Part shown: one piece after another, positions 23,892 through 37,858 of the stretch
Position numbering within the stretch: the first letter of the stretch is position 1
Layout of the letters: each line of letters starts with the position of its first letter
Virus record (IMG/VR): IMGVR_UViG_3300046007_012848
Coordinates: 1 to 39,344 of that record
DNA from: a virus
Reading direction: 5' to 3' (one strand)
Length of the DNA: 39,344 nt
The notes under the pieces: model-generated
The model's input: the letters and a program-made list of their open reading frames with translations, nothing else
Databases searched by the model: none
Told to the model about the DNA's origin: nothing
Program-made: the position numbers and the translations under genes

Positions 23892-25275
23892 TGTCCAACG
23901 ATTATTCCTGGAGATGATGTTGCAAGATGCACAGAGTTATGTGCGTGTGCAGAATATCTTTAATCCAGAGAATTTTGATCGCGCTCTGAGAGCCGCAGCT
24001 GAATTCATTAAAGAACACTGCGACCGACACAAGACCATGCCCGAGCGCACACAGGTGTCTGCTACCACCGGCGTCAAACTTGAGCACATACCCGATCTCA
24101 ATGAGGGGCACTTTGATTGGTTCCTTGAAGAGTTTGAAGGATTCACACGCCGACAAGAACTAGAACGGGCGATCTTGAAGTCTGCAGATTTGCTGGAAAA
24201 AGGCAACTTTGATCCTGTAGAAAAACTGATTAAGGATGCGGTACAGATATCTTTGACCAAGGACATGGGCACAGATTACTTTGATGATCCGCGAGCCCGA
24301 CTCATGGCGCTAAAGAGCAACAACGGACAGAATAGCACGGGCTGGCCTGCGCTAGACAAACTGCTGTATGGTGGATTCAATCGCGGAGAATTACAGATCT
24401 TCGCCGGTGGATCAGGGTCAGGCAAGAGTTTGTTCATGCAGAACCTGGCAGTGAACTGGAGCCAGGCCGGACTCAATGGTGTGTACATCACTTTGGAGTT
24501 GTCAGAAGGACTGTGTTCCTATCGCATAGATTCAATGATGACTAACACAGCGGCCAAGGAGATCTTCCGAGACATCGACACAGTGGAGATGAAGGTCAAG
24601 ATGCTGGCCAAGAAGGCAGGAAAACTGCGTATCAAATACATGCCGGCACAGAGTACAGTGAATGACATCCGCGCCTATCTTAAAGAGCTGGAAATACAGA
24701 CCAAAGTCAAGACAGACTTCTTGTGCATCGATTATTTAGATTTGCTGATGCCAGTGTCGGCCAAGGTAAGCCCCAACGATTTGTTCGTCAAGGACAAATA
24801 TGTTTCAGAAGAACTGCGCAATCTAGCCAAGGAACTTAATGTGTTGTTTGTTACTGCCTCGCAGTTGAACCGAGCGGCAGTGGAAGAGATTGAGTTTGAT
24901 CATAGCCATATATCGGGTGGTATCAGTAAAATCAACACAGCGGACAATGTCTTTGGCATCTTCACCAGCAGAGCCATGCGTGAGCGCGGACGCTATCAAC
25001 TACAGTTGATGAAGACTAGAAGTTCTAGCGGTGTTGGGCAGAAAGTAGAACTAGAGTTTGACATCGAGAGTCTGCGCATCCGAGATCTTGCACAGGACGA
25101 AGGCTATCAAGAGTTCAAGAAGCGTGCCCCATCGATTTACGAATCTATCAAAGCCAAATCTACACTGACCGACGATGAGCCCAATGCTACAGTGGCAGAT
25201 GAGCCCGGCAAGATTACAGCAGAAATACAGTCGAATAAACTCAAGCAATTGCTGGGGCAGATCAAGCAATCTTGA
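23869..25275 (+). CDS. Replicative DnaB-like helicase, T4 gp41 type
   Basis: A 468-residue protein (T4 gp41 has 475). The start is a TTG inside the primase gene, preceded by AAGGA. An N-terminal helical domain (1-130) is followed by a RecA-like ATPase core: STGWPALDKLLYGGFNRGEL, Walker A GGSGSGKS at 180-187, VYITLELSEG (H1a), FLCIDYLDLL (Walker B), and LFVTASQLNR. It unwinds the fork as a hexamer together with the primase. The last residues (LKQLLGQIKQS) recur, in different codons, in a non-coding stretch at 27009-27071. The end overlaps the convergent polymerase gene by 14 bp. Confidence 0.9.
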   Translation: MLKDYGIDVQRLFLEMMLQDAQSYVRVQNIFNPENFDRALRAAAEFIKEHCDRHKTMPERTQVSATTGVKLEHIPDLNEGHFDWFLEEFEGFTRRQELERAILKSADLLEKGNFDPVEKLIKDAVQISLTKDMGTDYFDDPRARLMALKSNNGQNSTGWPALDKLLYGGFNRGELQIFAGGSGSGKSLFMQNLAVNWSQAGLNGVYITLELSEGLCSYRIDSMMTNTAAKEIFRDIDTVEMKVKMLAKKAGKLRIKYMPAQSTVNDIRAYLKELEIQTKVKTDFLCIDYLDLLMPVSAKVSPNDLFVKDKYVSEELRNLAKELNVLFVTASQLNRAAVEEIEFDHSHISGGISKINTADNVFGIFTSRAMRERGRYQLQLMKTRSSSGVGQKVELEFDIESLRIRDLAQDEGYQEFKKRAPSIYESIKAKSTLTDDEPNATVADEPGKITAEIQSNKLKQLLGQIKQS

Positions 25276-26965
25276 GATATTGATCGATAGCCACAGCCTT
25301 GATGTCTTTTCTGGGCACTTGCAGGAATTGGCTACCATCTCGGCTCTGGCGTTCGCCTTGCCCTATCAGCACCGAGCCGGTGCCATATTTCACAGGATGA
25401 TCCACTATAAGATCCACATACTCTCCTTCGCCTACTCCCAGAGTAATGAAATGGATATATTTCTGTTTGTCTCGTCGGAACACACGACTGTTGGCCACGA
25501 TACCAGCAAATTCAAACTTATCTAAGTAAAGATTACGCACCCCCATGCGCGGCAAGAATCCTGGAGAATTCCAGCAGCCGTGCTCCAGGAATGATTCTAC
25601 AGGATCTTCAGTGATCCAGTTATCAAATCCTAAGTCACGCAGATCCCAGCCTGCCCGCTTGGCTTCGTTCCTATAGACCCAACGGGCATAACTACCCTGG
25701 CAGTGTTTCAAGGCCGCACGCCAAAATTCTCTAGGATTGTGAGCTTTCTGCCAGGCCAGGGCCCAGATCAATCTACCCAGATTCACAGCATGGGCTCGGC
25801 ACAGGCCAAATCCTGACAGACTCTGCATCTCTTGATAGATGGCATGTCGATCTGGATGATCTCCCAAACGGGCCATAAACTCCATGACCTTTTCTTCGTT
25901 GCGTTTGGCAAAGGCACGACGATACATGTCAGCTTCGTAGGCATTGACCGAGATCAGTTTCATGATCTTTTCTATGGCATCATCCTCGCATACTATGGCC
26001 GACTCCTGCACCGATGTCTTGGTCCAGTCATGGAAGAACGAAGCTTTTTTTCGTCCCTCCACTGCCACCGGGCGTACTAATGCAGTAGCAAACACACAGT
26101 CCTCTACCGATGTAGGTTTGATAGCTCGGAACAGACGGCGCATAGCCGGAGATTCTCCCTGGGTGACACCTAGGACATCTCCACGCTGCAAAAGATCCTC
26201 TGTGAGATCATCTTCTTTGGGATATTCGTGTATCATGCGGGTAGGGTCAATCTCCATGAGTTGACTGAGACCTCGATTGGCCAGGATGTCTACCTTGAGA
26301 TGTTCCAGATCCTCGACTTCGTTTTTGTCCAGCAAGATGAGATTGTCATCGCGGAACAGGCTCTGTGGCAATTTCCGATCGAACACTATGACACCACCGC
26401 AATGTTTTGATAGGCAGCGTTTCTTGCCCATGAGTTTTTTTTCTATGCGGCGTGCTTCTTCTACATCTAGGCCCAGTTTAGCATAGTCTATTTCTTTGGG
26501 CAAGCGCCCTTTGGCACCCAGTCGTTTGGCCGCTTCTCGCCTGGCGCTTTTCTCTTTATACATCACATAGTTGCTGATGCGGGCGGTCTTGCCCGGCCAT
26601 GCATCAAAGATCCTCTGCATAGCTAGTTCTTGCTGATGATGTGGCACATCGATGTCCACATCGGGCAGATCGTCTCGGAAAGGATTGAGGAATCTAGCCA
26701 GGGGTATGTTCCATTCTATAGGATCCACATCGGTGATGCCCATGAGATAGCACACCAGACTAGATCCCGCAGATCCTCGTGTCATGTGTGGTATATCTTG
26801 ATTGAGATCCAGGACCCTGCGGATTTTGAGGAAATAATCCGTGAATCTCTGGTTGATGATTATGCCAAATTCTTCTGCTAATCTGTTTTGATATTCTGTG
26901 CCCTCTGGGCAAGGTCTTCGAAATTCTGCCAATAATGCTTCGATCTGCTGTAATTCTGTCGCCAT
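25262..26965 (-). CDS. DnaE-like DNA polymerase III alpha core without PHP domain
   Basis: A 567-residue protein. The palm begins almost at once: TRGSAGSSLVCYLMGITDVDP (62-82; E. coli GRGSGAGSLVAYAL), FLNPFRDDLPDVDIDVP with Asp102 and Asp104, and LKVDILANRG with Asp226, so all three catalytic aspartates are present. Then come QGESPAMRRLF, ALVRPV (295-300), YEADMYRRAFAKRNEEKV and GFGLCRAHAVNLGRL (fingers), and a C-terminal OB-like segment. The PHP domain and the C-terminal tau-binding domain are missing (E. coli DnaE: 1160 residues). The ATG at 26965 is preferred over an upstream start because the longer N-terminus is only the antisense of a helicase remnant. Confidence 0.85.
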   Translation of the reverse strand: MATELQQIEALLAEFRRPCPEGTEYQNRLAEEFGIIINQRFTDYFLKIRRVLDLNQDIPHMTRGSAGSSLVCYLMGITDVDPIEWNIPLARFLNPFRDDLPDVDIDVPHHQQELAMQRIFDAWPGKTARISNYVMYKEKSARREAAKRLGAKGRLPKEIDYAKLGLDVEEARRIEKKLMGKKRCLSKHCGGVIVFDRKLPQSLFRDDNLILLDKNEVEDLEHLKVDILANRGLSQLMEIDPTRMIHEYPKEDDLTEDLLQRGDVLGVTQGESPAMRRLFRAIKPTSVEDCVFATALVRPVAVEGRKKASFFHDWTKTSVQESAIVCEDDAIEKIMKLISVNAYEADMYRRAFAKRNEEKVMEFMARLGDHPDRHAIYQEMQSLSGFGLCRAHAVNLGRLIWALAWQKAHNPREFWRAALKHCQGSYARWVYRNEAKRAGWDLRDLGFDNWITEDPVESFLEHGCWNSPGFLPRMGVRNLYLDKFEFAGIVANSRVFRRDKQKYIHFITLGVGEGEYVDLIVDHPVKYGTGSVLIGQGERQSRDGSQFLQVPRKDIKAVAIDQYLKIA

Positions 26966-26994
26966 GATATGTGCCTTTAAATATGCCTGTGTGA

Positions 26995-27002
26995 TATTTA
27001 CA
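26995..27002 (-). promoter_or_regulatory. Late-promoter-like TGTAAATA for the polymerase gene
   Basis: Lies 30 bases upstream of the ATG at 26965, giving a predicted 24-nt leader with a weak AAAGG box. Two mismatches to TATAAATA. Confidence 0.3.
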
Positions 27003-27008
27003 ATTTGA

Positions 27009-27071
27009 CAAAAGGTACTCAATAATAATGACAATCTTAAACAACTGCTGGGACAAATCAAACAGTCATGA
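27009..27071 (+). pseudogene. Remnant of a helicase C-terminus
   Basis: Reading from 27009 the frame gives QKVLNNNDNLKQLLGQIKQS and a TGA stop at 27069-27071, with an in-frame TGA just upstream (27006-27008). The last 11 residues are identical to the end of the gp41-type helicase at 25275, yet the codons differ at many third positions (CTT/CTC, AAA/AAG, CAA/CAG). It is thus the end of a diverged helicase gene, not a recent copy. No full gene is attached. Confidence 0.75.
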
Positions 27072-30029: not shown

Positions 30030-30290
30030 ATGCAAAAGCGCACCCGCAGCATACTAGAAGAATTAGATGCGATCTACATCGAGAAAAACGCCGATCGTGA
30101 TCGCCGCTATATCATCGAGAGCCGGGCGCAAAATGTCATAGCCAGCGCTGTAAGACTGGTCGAGCAGATCGAATCCACTTATCCTGCTGATCAAGCGGAA
30201 AACCTGGTGCGTAAACTACTCAATGCTATCAAGAACAAAGATGCGGGAAAATTCACCCGCTCAGTGAGACGAACAGATGCAGATACATGA
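30030..30290 (+). CDS. Small late phage protein
   Basis: An 86-residue, mostly helical protein with a charged N-terminus (MQKRTRSILEELDAIYIEKNADRDRR) and a basic tail. It follows a late-promoter-like octamer and overlaps the next gene by 14 nt. It is probably a virion assembly or head-core component by position; no family is recognised. Confidence 0.45.
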   Translation: MQKRTRSILEELDAIYIEKNADRDRRYIIESRAQNVIASAVRLVEQIESTYPADQAENLVRKLLNAIKNKDAGKFTRSVRRTDADT

Positions 30291-31026
30291 ACTAACACAA
30301 CCCGATCAAGAACAGTTAGACGAAGTGATAGGTGGTCTAGCCCGCATGGCCGGCCAGGCCATAGCCAAGTCTCCGGTAGGCCAAGCCGTGGGCTCTGCAG
30401 TGGGTGCAGCCAAACAGGGATTCCAGCAAAGCGCAGTTGGGCAAACTCTGCAAAAAGCCGGAGACATTGAGCGCCAAGCAAAGATGAGCGCACAGACACA
30501 GGGTCTGGCCAAGGCCGCTCTGCAGCAGTGGAACAACAAGGTTCTGCAACTTACACAGGCCAACAAAGGACAGCCAGTTTCTGATCAGGAATATTTCACG
30601 CAACTGCAGGACTTTGTTAATCGTGTGATGCTGCAAGGAGCCTTTAGCCGATTGGACGGAACCAGCGCCAAACGTGTGAAACAGGCCATAGCCGGGGTCA
30701 CTGGTGTGAGGAACAACCCGACTCAATTGCAAGACAAGATGGAACAATTGGTGACCACCGCTTCAGCGTCACGTCAGGATCCCAATGCCTACTATGGCGC
30801 TTCCCGAGGAAGTGCAGCAAAAGCACCCACAGGTGCCGCACAGGCCGGTGCTGCACAACAGGCCGCACCGTTGGTGCAACAATTTTTAAATCAATCTGTT
30901 TCCGCTGCTCAGCAACAGGGATTCAAAACATTCCTACAACAGTATGCAGGAACCGGTGCGGTGCGTAGTACCGGAAATGCCACGGTCGATGCTTTTTTGA
31001 AAGAGTTAGGACTCAGAGTACAATGA
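30277..31026 (+). CDS. Ala/Gln-rich late protein with N-terminal capsid-tag-like motif
   Basis: A 249-residue low-complexity protein rich in Ala, Gln and Gly, predicted mostly helical (ARMAGQAIAKSPVGQAVGSAVG, AALQQWNNKVLQL, AAQAGAAQQAAPLVQQFL). It begins MQIHELTQ, an [IL]-x-E motif in residues 3-5 shared with three other late proteins here. The composition fits an internal head or scaffold protein. The stop overlaps the next start (ATGA). Confidence 0.5.
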   Translation: MQIHELTQPDQEQLDEVIGGLARMAGQAIAKSPVGQAVGSAVGAAKQGFQQSAVGQTLQKAGDIERQAKMSAQTQGLAKAALQQWNNKVLQLTQANKGQPVSDQEYFTQLQDFVNRVMLQGAFSRLDGTSAKRVKQAIAGVTGVRNNPTQLQDKMEQLVTTASASRQDPNAYYGASRGSAAKAPTGAAQAGAAQQAAPLVQQFLNQSVSAAQQQGFKTFLQQYAGTGAVRSTGNATVDAFLKELGLRVQ

Positions 31027-32879
31027 ACCTTACAGAAGGCGGCAATGTTTTCAAAGACGCCGAAGGTAGTCCTCGCACCCAGCGCATCAATCTAGCGGAC
31101 ATCAAACCCACCGTGGCCTGGCTGGAAAAAATCACGGATCTGCCCTTGGCGGACAACATGCTGGGCAGCACAGGCACCAAACCCACATCAGGAGATCTGG
31201 ATCTAGGTGTTGACAGCAACAAAGTTGACAAAGAAGAATTTTTCAAAAAGTTATCAGACATGATCGCTGCCCGCGGAGAAGATCCCAAGAACTGGGTGCG
31301 CAAGTCAGGCACAGCCGTGCACCTACTCACGCCCATAGCCGGTCGTCCCCGCACAGGTTTCGTGCAGACCGACTTTATGTTCCTGGCCAAGCCAGACTTT
31401 TCAAAATGGATCCTGCGCCAGGATCCTGCTTCAGAATACAAAGGCGCCACCAGGGCCGTGCTTATAAACTCCATGGCCAAGAGCATGGGGTATAAGCTCA
31501 ATCAAATCGCTGGCATCGCCAACAGGGATACCAACGAGCTGATCACTGACGATCCCGACGAGATCGCTCGCATGCTGCTGAATCCCGGGGCCACTCGTGA
31601 CGATCTTTCCTCGGTAGAACGCATCATGGCAGCATTAAAAACGGATCCCCGGCGCGAACAAAAACTAGCAGACTTCCGTGATCACATGGAGCGGGCTGGC
31701 ACACCCATCGCTGAGAACACAGATATCTACACAGAATACAACGAAGTCAACATCATGGCACGCCTGCGTGATCGCATAGTGAACCAAGGCATGCAGATCA
31801 TAGTGGAAGGAGTCCGTATCGAGCACCCCGAAGACATGGTGCTAGATCAGGGCAGCCGAGGACTGAATCAGGCTCTGCAGGGCATCCTGACAGCGGCTTC
31901 CCGACCCGAGAGTACCACCGTGAAGTGGGATGGAAAACCAGCCATCATATTTGGTCGCAAACCCACCGGAGAATTCGTGCTCACTGACAAGTCAGGATTC
32001 TTGGCCAAGGGCTATGATGGGTTGGCCACGAGTCCGGAACAGATCGAACGGATCATGGCTGCTCGTGGTGGTGAGCGCGGCGAACTGATCAATATCTACA
32101 AAAAACTTTTCCCCTTGTTGCGAGCAGCTACACCTGAAGATTTCCGAGGATACATCCAGGGAGATCTTTTGTTTGTCAACACTCCTCCAGAAGTCCGTGG
32201 TGCCTACGAGTTTACGCCCAACACCGTGAAATATCGAGTACCAGCGGATTCCGATCTAGGTCGCAAGATAGGTGACAGCGAAGTGGGAGTGGTCATCCAC
32301 ACAGCCTTGGCAGCACCAGGTGCACCGGCCACACCCATCCAGGCCGCTGCTCTGGAGCCAGTGTCAGGGCTCTTGATCTTGGATCCCAGCCTGAAAGAAA
32401 CACGAAAAATCAAATTGCGAGACAGCACTGTGAAAGATGTCCAACGCATCATCGGCCAGTACGGTGCTGCCATTGATAGATTATTTGATCCTGCAGAACT
32501 GCGGTCCAGGAAGATCACGGACTTTCCGCAACTGATTAAACAGTATATCAACAGTCGTGTAAGGTCGGGATCCTATGAAAATCTCATACAGGGATTTGGT
32601 GAGTGGGTCAAGCAACGGGCTCCGGCCAAGGCTCCTCGCATATTCGAGTGGGCCACCCAAAACAAGCAGGCCGTGGCCGCAGTATTCCAGGCCTTCTTGG
32701 ACATATCCAGCCTCAAGAATGATCTGGTGCGCCAGTTGGATGCGCAGGCCCAGGATGTGCAGGCTTCGGTCAACAACGAACCTGGCCACGAGGGTTATGT
32801 GGGCCAGGGCATGAAGTTCGTGGATCGTATGAGATTTTCTGCTGCCAACTTCGCACAAAACAATCCAGAATTAACCTAG
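31023..32879 (+). CDS. Pol-beta-type nucleotidyltransferase fused to a ligase-like domain
   Basis: A 618-residue two-domain protein. Residues 45-120: MLGSTGTKPTSGDLDLGVD (GST at 48-50, Asp58, Asp60) and FVQTDFMFL (Asp117) are the three metal ligands of a Pol-beta superfamily nucleotidyltransferase. Residues 298-430: VKWDGKPAIIF (KxDG, Lys301), FVLTDKSGF, GYIQGDLLF and TVKYRV fall in the order of motifs I, III, IV and V of covalent nucleotidyltransferases (DNA/RNA ligases, capping enzymes). It begins MNLTEGG, an [IL]-x-E tag. I recall similar proteins annotated as hypothetical in marine T4-like phages. RNA or DNA end modification is inferred, not shown. Confidence 0.6.
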   Translation: MNLTEGGNVFKDAEGSPRTQRINLADIKPTVAWLEKITDLPLADNMLGSTGTKPTSGDLDLGVDSNKVDKEEFFKKLSDMIAARGEDPKNWVRKSGTAVHLLTPIAGRPRTGFVQTDFMFLAKPDFSKWILRQDPASEYKGATRAVLINSMAKSMGYKLNQIAGIANRDTNELITDDPDEIARMLLNPGATRDDLSSVERIMAALKTDPRREQKLADFRDHMERAGTPIAENTDIYTEYNEVNIMARLRDRIVNQGMQIIVEGVRIEHPEDMVLDQGSRGLNQALQGILTAASRPESTTVKWDGKPAIIFGRKPTGEFVLTDKSGFLAKGYDGLATSPEQIERIMAARGGERGELINIYKKLFPLLRAATPEDFRGYIQGDLLFVNTPPEVRGAYEFTPNTVKYRVPADSDLGRKIGDSEVGVVIHTALAAPGAPATPIQAAALEPVSGLLILDPSLKETRKIKLRDSTVKDVQRIIGQYGAAIDRLFDPAELRSRKITDFPQLIKQYINSRVRSGSYENLIQGFGEWVKQRAPAKAPRIFEWATQNKQAVAAVFQAFLDISSLKNDLVRQLDAQAQDVQASVNNEPGHEGYVGQGMKFVDRMRFSAANFAQNNPELT

Positions 32880-32951: not shown

Positions 32952-33419
32952 ATGGCTTATTTCCCACCTTTTAATGGTGATTCGCAACCAGTATTTGCTC
33001 TGGACATCCAGAACGGTCCCCAGACAGGCACGATCACATCGGCCGCTCTGGTACAACCCCAGGGTCCCAAACTCGACTTTTTCGCTGTGATCATCAAGAA
33101 TGCCGGCACACAGGCACAGAACTTGACCACGCAGTTGGGCTCATACAGTTCTGGCGTGTTCACACCGGGTGCTATCAACACCATCAACCAGACGATCCAG
33201 CAGACCGCTACCATCGCGATCTACCAGGTCGAGGCAGGTGCCTCAGGACAGATTTCCTATGCCCTGTACCCCACTGGTGCTTACACAGCAGCCACACTGG
33301 AAGCTGCCATCCAAGGTGCTGGTAACGTCCAGATCACTGCTTCAGATGGCACAGTCACGGGCCTGAACGTGGCAGGTTCGACAGTGACCAACGTTGGTTT
33401 CAAACTGGCTACATCGTAA
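32952..33419 (+). CDS. Small, probably abundant virion protein
   Basis: A 155-residue protein with a Gly/Thr/Ala/Gln-rich beta composition (SYSSGVFTPGAINTINQTIQQ, NVQITASDGTVTGLNVAGST), no Cys, no catalytic motif. It has its own late-type promoter, a strong AGGAG site and its own terminator, and it uses preferred codons, all signs of high expression. A head decoration or tail-surface protein fits; the family is not recognised. Confidence 0.6.
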   Translation: MAYFPPFNGDSQPVFALDIQNGPQTGTITSAALVQPQGPKLDFFAVIIKNAGTQAQNLTTQLGSYSSGVFTPGAINTINQTIQQTATIAIYQVEAGASGQISYALYPTGAYTAATLEAAIQGAGNVQITASDGTVTGLNVAGSTVTNVGFKLATS

Positions 33420-33437
33420 TCGGTAAGTGTGCATTAC

Positions 33438-33467
33438 AACCCCGGAATCATTCCGGGGTTTTCTTTT
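33438..33467 (+). terminator. Intrinsic terminator after the virion protein gene
   Basis: A perfect 10-bp stem, AACCCCGGAA with TTCCGGGGTT, has a 3-nt loop and is followed by TTCTTTT. It isolates the small virion gene as a single-gene unit. Confidence 0.92.
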
Positions 33468-33470
33468 GGC

Positions 33471-33478
33471 CGTAAATA
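33471..33478 (+). promoter_or_regulatory. Late-promoter-like CGTAAATA
   Basis: Directly follows the terminator. T4 spacing predicts transcription from 33484, exactly the A of the ATG of the next gene, so a leaderless mRNA is expected. Confidence 0.5.
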
Positions 33479-33483
33479 CCAGC

Positions 33484-34113
33484 ATGCAACCCATATCTCT
33501 CTGGCCCAGTCGCTTCTATGATTTTGACTGGTCCGATCATGCCCGACACGCACCCGGAATCCGGCGTGTGTGTTATGATCTAGAACAGCGCAAACAAGTC
33601 AGTGGCATCGCACCTGATGCCAAGCGTGGTCTATATGAAAGCGGATTTGATTTCCTAAACCACGATGATCCCAGCGTCCGAGCACTGGCGGAATTCGTCC
33701 GCGGGTCGATATTCCGTGCTGCAGCTGATGCCAATCGTGGTCATTGGCCTGCTGGTGCCAACATGGTGGTCAACTTGCATGAATCCTGGTGCCATATCAC
33801 CCGCGACGGCGGTTATCATGACATGCACATGCATCCCGGCAGTTCTTGGTCGGCCATCTACTACTTGGACTGCGGAGACATGGATGCTGCCACTAAGAAC
33901 GGTGCCAATCGTTTTTACAATCCCACACACACCATGTGGAATGACATGGGCGCAGCTTACATGACAGCCAGCACCAGCATAGATTTCCAAGCGCAGCCTG
34001 GCATGATGATAGTGTTTCCCAGCCATATCCCACATGCTGCGCTGACCTATCGCGGCAGCCGAGATCGCATAGTTATCGCGGTCAATAGCCAGATCATGCA
34101 GGTGCGAGATTGA
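33484..34113 (+). CDS. 2OG-Fe(II) oxygenase-like protein (TIGR02466-like)
   Basis: A 209-residue protein. NLHESWCHITRDGGYHDMHMHPGSSWSAIYYLD, then FQAQPGMMIVFPSHIPHAALTYRGSRDRIVIAVN give the core of this family: His115 and His117, distal His184, and an Arg near 193-195. The usual HxD position reads His-Met-His, as is common in this subfamily. The ATG at 33484 is chosen because it follows the terminator; an upstream in-frame start would lie inside it. In a late operon it may modify virion proteins or DNA; unknown. Confidence 0.7.
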   Translation: MQPISLWPSRFYDFDWSDHARHAPGIRRVCYDLEQRKQVSGIAPDAKRGLYESGFDFLNHDDPSVRALAEFVRGSIFRAAADANRGHWPAGANMVVNLHESWCHITRDGGYHDMHMHPGSSWSAIYYLDCGDMDAATKNGANRFYNPTHTMWNDMGAAYMTASTSIDFQAQPGMMIVFPSHIPHAALTYRGSRDRIVIAVNSQIMQVRD

Positions 34114-35299: not shown

Positions 35300-36077
35300 A
35301 ACACTGCGCGGGCAGTACGAGTCGCAGGTGGATTTTGATCGGCTTTCCGAGTCGCAGGCACGCCACATGCTGGATCGTGTGCAGGGACTGCTGCGCGAAC
35401 ACAAATCAAGTGTGAGCCGCCACTTCAGCGAGCGCAATCCCGACTACATGAAACTGGTCATGCTAGAGCAGGCCCTGACTGCTCGCTTAGACGAAAAATA
35501 CATGGGCTTTGACAAAACAGTGCAGGCCATCAAAAAAGGCGGGTCAGCCCGAGATCCCGAGGCTGTGGCTGCTGCCATCGGTCGCAAGAAGTACGGCAAG
35601 GCCAAATTCCAAAAGGCTGCTGCTGCTGGTAAGAAACTCGGTGAGCGCCGTATCATGGAAGCCAGCGAGATCCAGACAGCACAGGTAGTGCTGGCCAGCC
35701 AAGACATGGTGGATCGCATCCAGGGCATGATGGAAGACATCTCCGAGATGCAGTTCAAGGATCTACCGGCTCTTACCAACTCTATCAAGAATGACATGGG
35801 CACAGAACAGGCCAGCCAGTTCAACGCACAAGCCGCTGCGGCCTTGACTAATCTATTGGCAGCAGTACAGGCTGGCAAGACTGAACTAGAAAGCGCACAA
35901 GGCGTGCTCACTGGCCAGGCGCCCATGGTACCCGGTGCTGATGCCAGCGCCATGCCTGCTGCTGCACCTGCACCTGGCGAAGAGGAACTAGACCTTAGCA
36001 TTGACGCCAACCTCCCCGCTGACGAAGAACCAGAAGATGAGGCAGGCGCTGAAACACTGGGCCGAGAGCGCAGATAA
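35250..36077 (+). CDS. Probable internal head/scaffold-type protein
   Basis: A 275-residue protein. The ATG at 35250 has a GAGGA box at the right distance; upstream in-frame starts do not. It begins MKLQELGARRP ([IL]-x-E tag), continues with helical charged segments (FDRLSESQARHMLDRVQGLL), a basic AAIGRKKYGKAKFQKAA stretch, a long helical part and a very acidic tail (EEELDLSIDANLPADEEPED). Basic core plus acidic end is typical of prohead core or internal proteins of T4-like phages; this is inferred. The stop shares a base with the next start (TAATG). Confidence 0.55.
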   Translation: MKLQELGARRPTEQIAKTLRGQYESQVDFDRLSESQARHMLDRVQGLLREHKSSVSRHFSERNPDYMKLVMLEQALTARLDEKYMGFDKTVQAIKKGGSARDPEAVAAAIGRKKYGKAKFQKAAAAGKKLGERRIMEASEIQTAQVVLASQDMVDRIQGMMEDISEMQFKDLPALTNSIKNDMGTEQASQFNAQAAAALTNLLAAVQAGKTELESAQGVLTGQAPMVPGADASAMPAAAPAPGEEELDLSIDANLPADEEPEDEAGAETLGRERR

Positions 36078-36412
36078 TGCAGATCCGGGAAGTCACTGAC
36101 AGCCCGGATGCTCAAAAACTCTTGGCTCTAAGCCAGTTCTTGATCAGTCGGGCACAAGACACAGACAGTCAAAAAAAGATTTCGGTTGATGCTTTCATCA
36201 ATCTGGCCCAGAACATGGGCATCAGCCTGACCCCGGATAATCTTGCGACCATGAGCCAACGGCCTCCCTTGAGCACCGTAATCCAAACAGTTACTCCCAC
36301 TGAAATCATCTTCCGCGGCGCCGATCAGGAGCAGGTCACAGATACCATGACCGTGGATCAGGCCCAAAAGACAGTAGATACCATGGCCAAACGGGCCGTT
36401 GACATCAAGTAA
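36077..36412 (+). CDS. Small late protein with N-terminal capsid-tag-like motif
   Basis: A 111-residue protein starting MQIREVTDSPDAQKLL, again with [IL]-x-E at residues 3-5. Helical N-terminal half (LLALSQFLISRAQD), then IQTVTPTEIIFRGADQEQ and a helical C-terminus. No family is recognised. It is coupled to the preceding protein (TAATG), so the two are likely partners. The stop TAA lies in the spacer of the iscU promoter. Confidence 0.5.
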   Translation: MQIREVTDSPDAQKLLALSQFLISRAQDTDSQKKISVDAFINLAQNMGISLTPDNLATMSQRPPLSTVIQTVTPTEIIFRGADQEQVTDTMTVDQAQKTVDTMAKRAVDIK

Positions 36413-36445: not shown

Positions 36446-36838
36446 ATGGCTTATTCGGAAAAAGTCCTGGATCACTATGAGCATCCCAGGAACGTAGGAT
36501 CATTTGACAAAGGCGACACGCAAGTTGGTACCGGCATGGTCGGTGCGCCAGCCTGTGGCGATGTCATGAAACTACAGATCAAAGTAAGCGATGATGGAAT
36601 CATCACTGACGCGAGATTTAAAACATATGGGTGTGGTTCGGCCATCGCGAGCAGTTCTCTGGTCACAGAGTGGGTCAAGGGCAAGACGCTGGACGAAGCC
36701 TCAACTATCAAAAACACTGAGATCGCACAGGAGTTGGCCCTCCCTCCTGTCAAGATCCACTGTAGCATACTCGCAGAGGACGCTATCAAGGCAGCCATAG
36801 AGGATTACAAAAAGAAACATGATCTCGCTCACGGATGA
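36446..36838 (+). CDS. iscU: Iron-sulfur cluster scaffold IscU
   Basis: A 130-residue protein of full family length. All cluster ligands are present at the same numbers as in E. coli IscU: Cys37 and Asp39 (PACGD), Cys63 (YGCGSA), His105 and Cys106 (IHCSILAEDA). The HscA chaperone recognition motif LPPVK is intact at 99-103. IscU receives sulfur from host IscS, builds a [2Fe-2S] cluster and passes it on with HscA/HscB. No iscS, hscA, hscB or fdx is in the window, so the phage scaffold must work with host partners. Strong promoter and ribosome-binding site. It overlaps iscA by 20 nt. Confidence 0.95.
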   Translation: MAYSEKVLDHYEHPRNVGSFDKGDTQVGTGMVGAPACGDVMKLQIKVSDDGIITDARFKTYGCGSAIASSSLVTEWVKGKTLDEASTIKNTEIAQELALPPVKIHCSILAEDAIKAAIEDYKKKHDLAHG

Positions 36839-37148
36839 AGCTGCAAATCGCGTGCGAGAAAACATCGCCAGGCGAGGCAGAGGATTAGGTATCAAGATTG
36901 GTGTCAGGACCACTGGCTGCTCAGGGCTGGCATATGTCTTGGAATATGTCGATGTTGAACAAGGTCGAGAGCACTGCATGGCACACTATGATGTCAATGG
37001 AGTGCGGGTGTATATAGATCCCAAACATCGTCCGTATCTCGACGGCATGACCATGGATTATCTTAAAAAAGGTCTCAATGAAGGATTTGAGTTTATCAAT
37101 CCCAACGAGCGCGACCGCTGTGGTTGCGGAGAAAGTTTCCGAGTTTGA
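36819..37148 (+). CDS. iscA: A-type iron-sulfur carrier IscA
   Basis: A 109-residue HesB/IscA/ErpA family protein: ISLTDEAANRVRENI, TTGCSGLAYVLEYV (Cys34), and the C-terminal CGCGESF (Cys101, Cys103), giving the three conserved cysteines. Such proteins hold a cluster or iron and hand it to target apoproteins. ErpA is the alternative name; the sequence does not separate them. It begins 20 nt inside iscU and ends in a TTGA overlap with the nuclease gene, so all three are co-transcribed. Confidence 0.92.
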   Translation: MISLTDEAANRVRENIARRGRGLGIKIGVRTTGCSGLAYVLEYVDVEQGREHCMAHYDVNGVRVYIDPKHRPYLDGMTMDYLKKGLNEGFEFINPNERDRCGCGESFRV

Positions 37149-37858
37149 TTAATCCCCGATTTGATTACCAGCCCTTGAGCCGTGTCACGGAAGATGGGCG
37201 CCGTCTGTATTCCACTCCTGATGGAAAGAAACTGCCTTCTGTCACCACGATACTTGATCGCACCAAGCCCGAAGAAAAACGCATCGCTCTTGAAAACTGG
37301 AAACGCCGTGTGGGACCGGAACAAGCACAGCAGATAACCACTGAGGCAGCCAATCGTGGTACCAGGATGCACACCTATCTCGAGCATTATGTCAAAACAG
37401 GGCAGATCCGCGCAGCAGGCACTAATCCTTATGCCTGGGCTAGCCATGCCATGGCCATGACAGTGATTGACTATGGGTTGAAGAATGTCGAGGAATTCTG
37501 GGGTGTAGAAATCCCACTGTATTTTCCTGGACTCTATGCTGGTACCAGCGACGGGGCCGGTATACATCTTGGCAGCGAAAGCATATTGGATTACAAGCAG
37601 ACCAACAAGCCCAAAAAGCGCGAGTGGATCGAAGACTATTTCCTGCAGTTGGCAGCCTATGCCCTGGCTCACAACGAAGTCTATGGCACGAAAATACGCA
37701 AGGGTGTGGTGCTGATGTGCGTCAAGCCCGAAGTCGACAGCCAGTTTAACATCACTAAACCACCAGAATATCAGGAATTTGTGCTGGAAGAAGCAGACTT
37801 TGGATACTGGGAGCAGCAGTGGTGGAAGCGCCTGGAGCTCTACTACTTGACCGCATAA
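37145..37858 (+). CDS. PD-(D/E)XK nuclease, RecB/Cas4-like
   Basis: A 237-residue protein from a TTG overlapping the iscA stop (TTGA); an upstream TTG (37124) is less likely. INPRFDYQPLSR, TPDGKKLPSVTTIL, ANRGTRMHTYLE (71-80), YAGTSDGAGI (Asp136), ILDYKQTNK (Asp149, Lys151) and FLQLAAYAL (Q168-x3-Y172) show a complete RecB-like nuclease site. Only one cysteine is present, so it does not bind the Fe-S cluster of AddB or Cas4. It is probably a phage recombination or DNA-degradation exonuclease. Confidence 0.82.
   Translation: MINPRFDYQPLSRVTEDGRRLYSTPDGKKLPSVTTILDRTKPEEKRIALENWKRRVGPEQAQQITTEAANRGTRMHTYLEHYVKTGQIRAAGTNPYAWASHAMAMTVIDYGLKNVEEFWGVEIPLYFPGLYAGTSDGAGIHLGSESILDYKQTNKPKKREWIEDYFLQLAAYALAHNEVYGTKIRKGVVLMCVKPEVDSQFNITKPPEYQEFVLEEADFGYWEQQWWKRLELYYLTA

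Follow-up and report, generated by a model that had tools for sequence, protein, structure and literature searches.

Here we describe a gene on the plus strand (31023-32879) of a 39,344-nucleotide stretch of viral DNA (IMG/VR record IMGVR_UViG_3300046007_012848, positions 1 to 39,344; hereafter the window), whose 618-residue product joins a nucleotidyltransferase half resembling the family X DNA polymerases (PolX) to a ligase-like half of the DUF6267 family. The active-site residues of both halves are invariant among its relatives, and [LI]xE motifs are localised both at the start of the chain and in the linker between the halves. The product may be a polyprotein that a T4-like jumbo phage packs into its capsid and that is cut in two, is ejected with the DNA and mends nucleic-acid ends, a reading to which we give an even chance; its stricter form, in which the polyprotein is packed in the head, split by the prohead protease and injected for repair before phage genes are expressed, falls somewhat short of even.

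The coordinates and frame of the open reading frame (ORF) given by an earlier first-pass annotation of this DNA were right. A scan of viral contigs gave 589 relatives, and a near full-length homologue was present in 75 of the 80 best loci, showing that this is no chance ORF. No relative of the protein was found in the cellular genomes searched.

Two nucleotidyltransferase domains in one chain

The AlphaFold model of the whole protein, built with 46 sequences, had a mean predicted local distance difference test (pLDDT) of 83.6 and consisted of two confident domains separated by a disordered linker. The features localised in the gene are the following:

31023..32879 (+): PolX-like nucleotidyltransferase fused to a DUF6267 ligase-like domain, 618 residues
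31023..31037 (+): leader MNLTE, with a predicted prohead-protease cut after Glu5, before Gly6; [LI]xE in 27/27 non-redundant relatives
31038..31697 (+): PolX-like domain, residues 6-225, palm and thumb without the 8-kDa lyase domain (AlphaFold, VIA, Foldseek)
31164..31202 (+): GST...SGDLD, holding Asp58 and Asp60, the first two of three metal aspartates
31371..31373 (+): Asp117, third metal aspartate (VQTDFMF), invariant
31431..31637 (+): thumb-like part, residues 137-205; the fold match extends to residue 199
31698..31817 (+): inter-domain linker, mostly of low confidence (pLDDT <50 at 233-264), with LRDRIVNQGM conserved at 248-257
31800..31808 (+): second [LI]xE site, I260-V-E262, predicted to be the cut that separates the enzymes
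31818..32876 (+): DUF6267 ligase-like domain, residues 266-618
31923..31934 (+): motif I, K301-W-D-G304; Lys301 is the putative nucleophile
32148..32174 (+): motif III, GYIQGDLLF, Asp381 (invariant) replacing the usual Glu
32217..32234 (+): PNTVKY motif
32418..32747 (+): helical insert of ~110 residues (about 466-575) between motifs III and IV
32790..32801 (+): motif IV, E590-G-Y-V593; Glu, Gly and Val invariant
32814..32828 (+): motif V-like K598-F-V-D-R602 without the second Lys of the usual K-x-K; Lys598, Val600 and Arg602 invariant

When residues 1-199 were compared with known structures by VIA, every listed row was a family X DNA polymerase, the best being Pol lambda (Z 10.5, root-mean-square deviation 3.3, 182 aligned residues), and the top Foldseek match was Tth PolX (E 6.4e-4), with the PolX of African swine fever virus (ASFV; AsfvPolX) reaching a TMt of up to 0.59. 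The GS motif (G48-S49) was present, and Asp58, Asp60 and Asp117 were invariant in 76 sequences as well as in the jumbo-phage homologues described below; we take the GST...SGDLD...TDF pattern to suit a Pol X palm. Together, the predicted fold and the motif assignments argue strongly for a family X polymerase fold in this half, in agreement with the Pol-beta-type fold and metal triad put forward in the first-pass annotation. Sequence comparison by itself, profiles included, gave no link to any solved structure. Like the minimal family X enzyme ASFV PolX, the window protein has palm, thumb, GS motif and D-x-D...D triad and no lyase domain; it differs from that enzyme in having no Pfam palm match, in its [LI]xE sites and in carrying a ligase partner in the same chain. 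RlaP was considered as another identity and was rejected, as the RlaP hidden Markov model (HMM) PF10127 had no match in the protein.

Residues 266-612 matched DUF6267 (Pfam PF19782; E 5.7e-45, 154.7 bits against a cut-off of 27), making this half a clear member of that family, and PHROG 455 matched it at E 4.9e-35. PF19782 was the only Pfam family found in the window protein at E<=1, and RNA_ligase (PF09414) was unmatched. A dedicated model of the half (56 sequences; pLDDT 87.5, predicted template modelling score 0.81) retrieved ATP-dependent RNA or DNA ligases in all of its 50 best VIA rows. RNA ligases led the list (Z 8.1-6.5), with a Naegleria RNA ligase on top at 8.1, and DNA ligases followed at about 6; Z differences below 1 count as ties. 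A Z of 8 is modest when taken alone, and it is the uniform list together with an independent set of motifs that makes the ligase fold convincing. We consider, with strong support from the predicted structure, that DUF6267, a family which itself carries no stated function, belongs to the ligase superfamily.

The motif set came from an alignment, backed by a larger one, of the window group with DUF6267 proteins of cyanophages, Melnitz, DLP6 and C48C1, which share 25-31% identity. Its invariant residues included K301, D303, G304, D381, E590, G591, V593, K598, V600 and R602, and no aligned relative, whether of the window group, the cyanophages or DLP6, departs from those at E590 and beyond. We assign them to ligase motifs I, III and IV and to an altered motif V, the likely positions of IV and V being E590-G-Y-V and K598-F-V-D-R. 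All the strings quoted in the first-pass annotation were found, GST (48-50), GDLDL (57-61), TDF (116-118), KWDGK (301-305), QGDLLF (379-384) and VKYR (402-405), and its motif I was correct: K301-W-D-G was invariant in the 76 sequences, and its Lys, Asp and Gly also in the wider alignments. Structure prediction of both halves and the invariance of the four residues on which it had staked its proposal, Asp58, Asp60, Asp117 and Lys301, thus bore out the two folds. Its labels for motifs IV and V were rejected on position and conservation. QGDLLF sits at the position of ligase motif III, and Lys403 of VKYR is variable (K in 28, E in 23, T in 19 and A in 4 of the 76 sequences). This stretch is a separate PN(T/S)(V/I)xY motif, whose P399, N400 and Y404 are invariant in the wider alignment and which recurs as PN(S/T/V)(I/V)xY in jumbo-phage ligases; E590-G-x-V593 and K598-x-V600-x-R602 had been overlooked.

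With the ATP-dependent RNA ligases (Naegleria Rnl, T4 Rnl1, Rnl2, REL1) the C half shares the adenylyltransferase core, motifs I, III and IV and the first Lys of motif V, and it differs from them in the helical insert, in the Asp of motif III, in the K-x-V-x-R form of motif V and in a chain that ends soon after this motif. Known DUF6267 proteins stand alone or are fused to a HIGH-type cytidylyltransferase (S-PM2), whereas that of the window is fused to the PolX-like domain. A HIGH-type cytidylyltransferase gene following DUF6267, or fused to it as in S-PM2, was seen at L083:7592-9544, L084:7197-8285 and L274:4019-5794.

Leader and linker sites

The prohead protease gp21 of T4 cleaves after L/I-X-E (PMC9026906). 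Proteins of the window family begin with a variable leader of 4-7 residues (MNLTE, MQINE, MKLFE and others) ahead of GGN, which drifts in sequence and length apart from its [LI]xE; the third residue before the predicted cut was Leu or Ile in 31 of the 32 distinct leaders and Val in one. Among the five Glu columns conserved in >=95% of the 76 sequences, only those of Glu5 (with five Val) and Glu262 had Leu or Ile at this P3 position. Both sites carried [LI]xE in 27/27 rows sharing <85% identity, and the next-best [LI]xE column (24/27) lay within a predicted helix. Glu5 and Glu262 both fall in disordered segments of the model, the latter just before the DUF6267 domain. These sites, suggesting cleavage between the halves, had gone unnoticed in the first-pass annotation. 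Because Glu262 is placed in this way and a near-invariant Met257 lies five residues ahead of it, Met257-xx-[LI]xE resembles the start and leader of a DUF6267 gene that once stood alone, retained after fusion. The segment LRDRIVNQGM (within window positions 31758-31793, residues 246-257) was near-invariant though outside both domains, and was not found in any other protein of the 315-kb sister genome described next.

The window is a 39-kb phage fragment, and sister records bearing the fusion are 209 and 315 kb long. These two, the largest fusion records, both encode T4-type gp21 and gp23, suggesting that the lineage is T4-like and jumbo-sized. Two records with the fusion matched the prohead protease family PF03420 (E 3e-28 to 5e-28); the window fragment has no PF03420 match.

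Comparable leaders are found on T4 proteins (MKTYQEFIAE in IPII and IPIII, MELITE in Alt) and on stand-alone DUF6267 proteins of the Melnitz type (MINFSSFLTE, MLNFSGFLAE), where 40/40 distinct leaders ended in [LI]xE and were of the T4 capsid-targeting type. The virion proteome of cyanophage S-CREM2 has been published (PMC10665884). Four of its proteins, gp6 (SAM hydrolase, MKDFDSFLEE), gp13 (a small protein, MKDLHSFLTE), gp14 (kinase, MKRFDAFLTE) and gp154 (cytidylyltransferase, MKNFSSFLTE), were all detected in virions by mass spectrometry. With annotated starts, the products of 4/5 S-CREM2 genes with an M..(F/L)..FLxE leader were virion proteins (uncorrected p 0.012). The p value was 0.009 when the pattern was any LxE within 13 residues and 0.75 when A/S/G/D had to follow the LxE, and none of the three is corrected for the choice of pattern. 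In S-SZBM1 the virion list included the cytidylyltransferase _140 (leader MRFRQFIIE) and did not include _141, the adjacent DUF6267 protein, which has no leader. In both phages, therefore, the leader tracked packaging, on small numbers, and an M..(F/L)..FLxE leader may predict packaged enzymes in cyanophages.

The window protein shares the N-terminal [LI]xE leader with the T4 internal head proteins (Alt, IPI-III), and would likewise be delivered with the DNA; it is a different enzyme, whose second cut site would divide the chain into two. Carriage in the virion and injection like T4 Alt, as suggested in the first-pass annotation, thus gained support from the [LI]xE leaders, from gp21 in the sister genomes, from the near-identical leaders of S-CREM2 virion enzymes and from a homologue in Pseudomonas phage PA5oct (EST35_0231) annotated as 'structural protein, ESI-MS/MS', with packaging itself still a prediction. 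Scans of the window protein against Pfam, PHROGs and NCBIfam showed no ADP-ribosyltransferase (ART) family. Among side observations in S-CREM2 (L276-L279), the Cas9-annotated gp12 has RFASFMAE further in, and gp156 (L278:36012-36725), a Pol-beta-type nucleotidyltransferase of another kind (NTP_transf_2, E 3e-4), figures in the virion proteome next to the packaged cytidylyltransferase.

Proposed function and its alternatives

From these observations we infer packaging, cleavage, ejection, enzymatic activity and substrate as follows. The short [LI]xE leader would target the polyprotein into the prohead, where a T4-type prohead protease would make two cuts, one after Glu5 and one in the disordered linker after Glu262. 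The products would be a PolX-like nucleotidyltransferase (6-262) and, from residues 263-618, a lysine-adenylating ligase. The two would be ejected along with the phage DNA, and in the new host the transferase could restore the missing nucleotides on a broken end and the ligase seal the break via Lys301-AMP. The substrate that we slightly favour is RNA ends, such as those of tRNAs cleaved by host defence nucleases.

The two activities are also paired outside the fusion. A PolX-like gene comes immediately after a ligase-like gene in Agrobacterium phage Atu_ph07 and in Sinorhizobium phage Phosso, and two genes after one in PA5oct; the order in the window fusion is transferase-ligase. The PolX half of the window and the Phosso ligase, used as queries, retrieved the same 14 phage records in the organism tally, and the Phosso PolX also matched Lak megaphages. 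We read these partner genes as functionally linked. In the ligase-like proteins of the three phages, KxDG, PNxxxY and EG(V/Y)V are present, together with an acidic segment at motif III and a K-x-(V/F)-D segment; the PolX proteins of these phages begin with MGG or MSGN. Compared as profiles, DUF6267 and the three ligases matched weakly (probability 12%; E 0.0025, calculated for one comparison), the alignment covering motif I and the PNxIxY segment; the match of the Atu_ph07 ligase to RNA_ligase (PF09414) was also weak (E 0.002). Related proteins of phrog_13937 with a possible PD-(D/E)XK pattern, as judged by eye, lie near the ligase-like gene of DLP6 (L085:5031-5948) and PA5oct (L167:4647-5666), and other DUF6267 loci have different upstream proteins that look similar to them. 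The neighbour of DLP6 was not found in the fusion genomes searched, and the small neighbours of PA5oct had no detectable homology to the window products starting at 30030 and 32952.

A packaged pair may instead serve DNA: a minimal PolX and a ligase carried in the virion could fill gaps in the entering phage genome and seal its nicks or ends. Such a substrate would fit family X enzymes, which are DNA polymerases, and would have a parallel in ASFV, where PolX is paired with a ligase and both act in base-excision repair; the N fold is that of the minimal palm-thumb form, and the pair of Atu_ph07 and Phosso is located near primase-helicase genes. We nevertheless regard this alternative as rather unlikely, and favour RNA slightly over breaks in the entering DNA. 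The ligase core resembles RNA ligases more than DNA ligases, within the limits of tied Z values, and has no OB domain, and a separate ATP-dependent DNA ligase was encoded in 4/4 fusion genomes searched, leaving the fusion ligase free for another task. The 315-kb sister (L268-L269) carries about 25 clustered tRNA genes, together with a tmRNA (tag ANDELYALAA). A Pol-beta transferase paired with an RNA ligase is a known theme of phage RNA repair, as in the RlaP and RNA ligase pairs of jumbo phages (PMC7824862). The window protein shares with these pairs a Pol-beta-superfamily transferase working beside an RNA ligase, and differs in being no RlaP match, in its fusion in one chain and in its apparent packaging in the capsid.

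Several results weigh against the proposed function. In 8 records the Pfam palm HMM PF14792 stayed unmatched at E<=10 (the matches obtained in control genomes were likewise all below the family cut-off), and the thumb HMM PF14791 touched the thumb-like region of one relative only (G007, E 0.007, below cut-off), suggesting that the N half is a divergent member or a sister of family X. In the ligase half, motif V has Val600 in place of its second Lys, next to the invariant Lys598 and Arg602, the acidic residue of motif III is Asp and not Glu, and no OB-fold or other obvious nucleic-acid-binding domain is present besides the helical insert. As to packaging, the virion list of PA5oct includes the PolX homologue, which has no leader, and its ligase partner is not marked as detected; the window leader has 5 residues against the 10 of the IPIII targeting sequence; starts of the form M-x-[LIV]-x-E were not enriched genome-wide in the 315-kb fusion record (8 seen against ~7 expected, with crude start calls); and we know of no virion proteome for a fusion-bearing phage.

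The last two of these points would also suit an ordinary, unpackaged RNA or DNA repair enzyme of late infection whose [LI]xE patterns have another cause, as would the leaderless cyanophage DUF6267 proteins and the place of S-SZBM1_141 outside the virion list. We think this improbable, as two [LI]xE sites persist in disordered segments in 27/27 rows while the adjacent leader residues drift, the gene is syntenic with a virion structural gene family, and the PA5oct homologue owes its annotation to virion mass spectrometry. Least probable, with only a slim chance in our estimate, is a modifier whose transferases put nucleoside monophosphates on host proteins or nucleic acids (capping, AMPylation). 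The incomplete motif V and the want of an evident nucleic-acid-binding domain would fit such an activity, and T4 Alt, once ejected, modifies host RNA polymerase (PMC9026906), a precedent for it. However, the 50/50 best fold rows of the C half were polynucleotide ligases, and PolX plus ligase is a repair combination. No capping-enzyme chain was among these rows, a negative that by itself does not rule capping out, and the capping considered in the first-pass annotation is thus unsupported.

Both folds are already known. We found in the literature neither the fusion, nor a ligase assignment or anything else on DUF6267, nor a prohead protease that processes a polymerase-ligase chain, in a search that left most subscription journals outside its scope, so that absence proves little. 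LigD-type fusions also hold a polymerase and a ligase in one chain; unlike the window fusion, LigD joins a polymerase of the archaeo-eukaryotic primase type to a DNA ligase with an OB domain. A tblastn search with DUF6267 reached 410 public phage records, nearly all 'hypothetical protein' among the matches listed, and we propose for the family a ligase-type nucleotidyltransferase function. If the proposed packaging and repair are true, DUF6267, which occurs in hundreds of records of T4-like cyanophages, would supply the ligase of an injected repair system, T4-like phages would inject a two-enzyme end-repair kit, and the prohead protease would act as a polyprotein processor freeing enzymes inside the capsid. 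Melnitz and DLP6 are cultured, making packaging directly testable.

Gene neighbourhood

The genes around the fusion with conserved or leader-like features are the following:

30030..30290 (+): small protein of the virion structural family phrog_11854, in synteny at 63/80 loci
30277..31026 (+): variable neighbour starting MQIHE...QLDE-V; at this position many relatives have a similar leader
32952..33419 (+): small conserved downstream protein, in 75/80 loci
36077..36412 (+): downstream protein whose relatives also begin M-x-[LI]-x-E

Judging from its start, the product of 30277..31026 is likely to be another internal head protein. No T4 late promoter (TATAAATA) was found near the fusion gene, and one match to the looser pattern ATAAATA lies 19 bp ahead of the upstream gene, though such sites are no more frequent in the window than chance would give; the description of the protein as late-expressed was consequently not sustained.

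Elsewhere in the window, a 2OG-Fe(II) oxygenase gene (33427-34113) lies within the conserved cluster and is present in 31/80 loci. A gene on the minus strand (25262-27061) encodes a short C-family DNA polymerase III alpha-like protein (Pfam DNA_pol3_alpha, E 1e-40; finger domain, E 3e-13). Finally, IscU-like and IscA-like iron-sulphur proteins were recognised by eye at 36446-37148, followed by a PD-(D/E)XK nuclease at 37124-37858.

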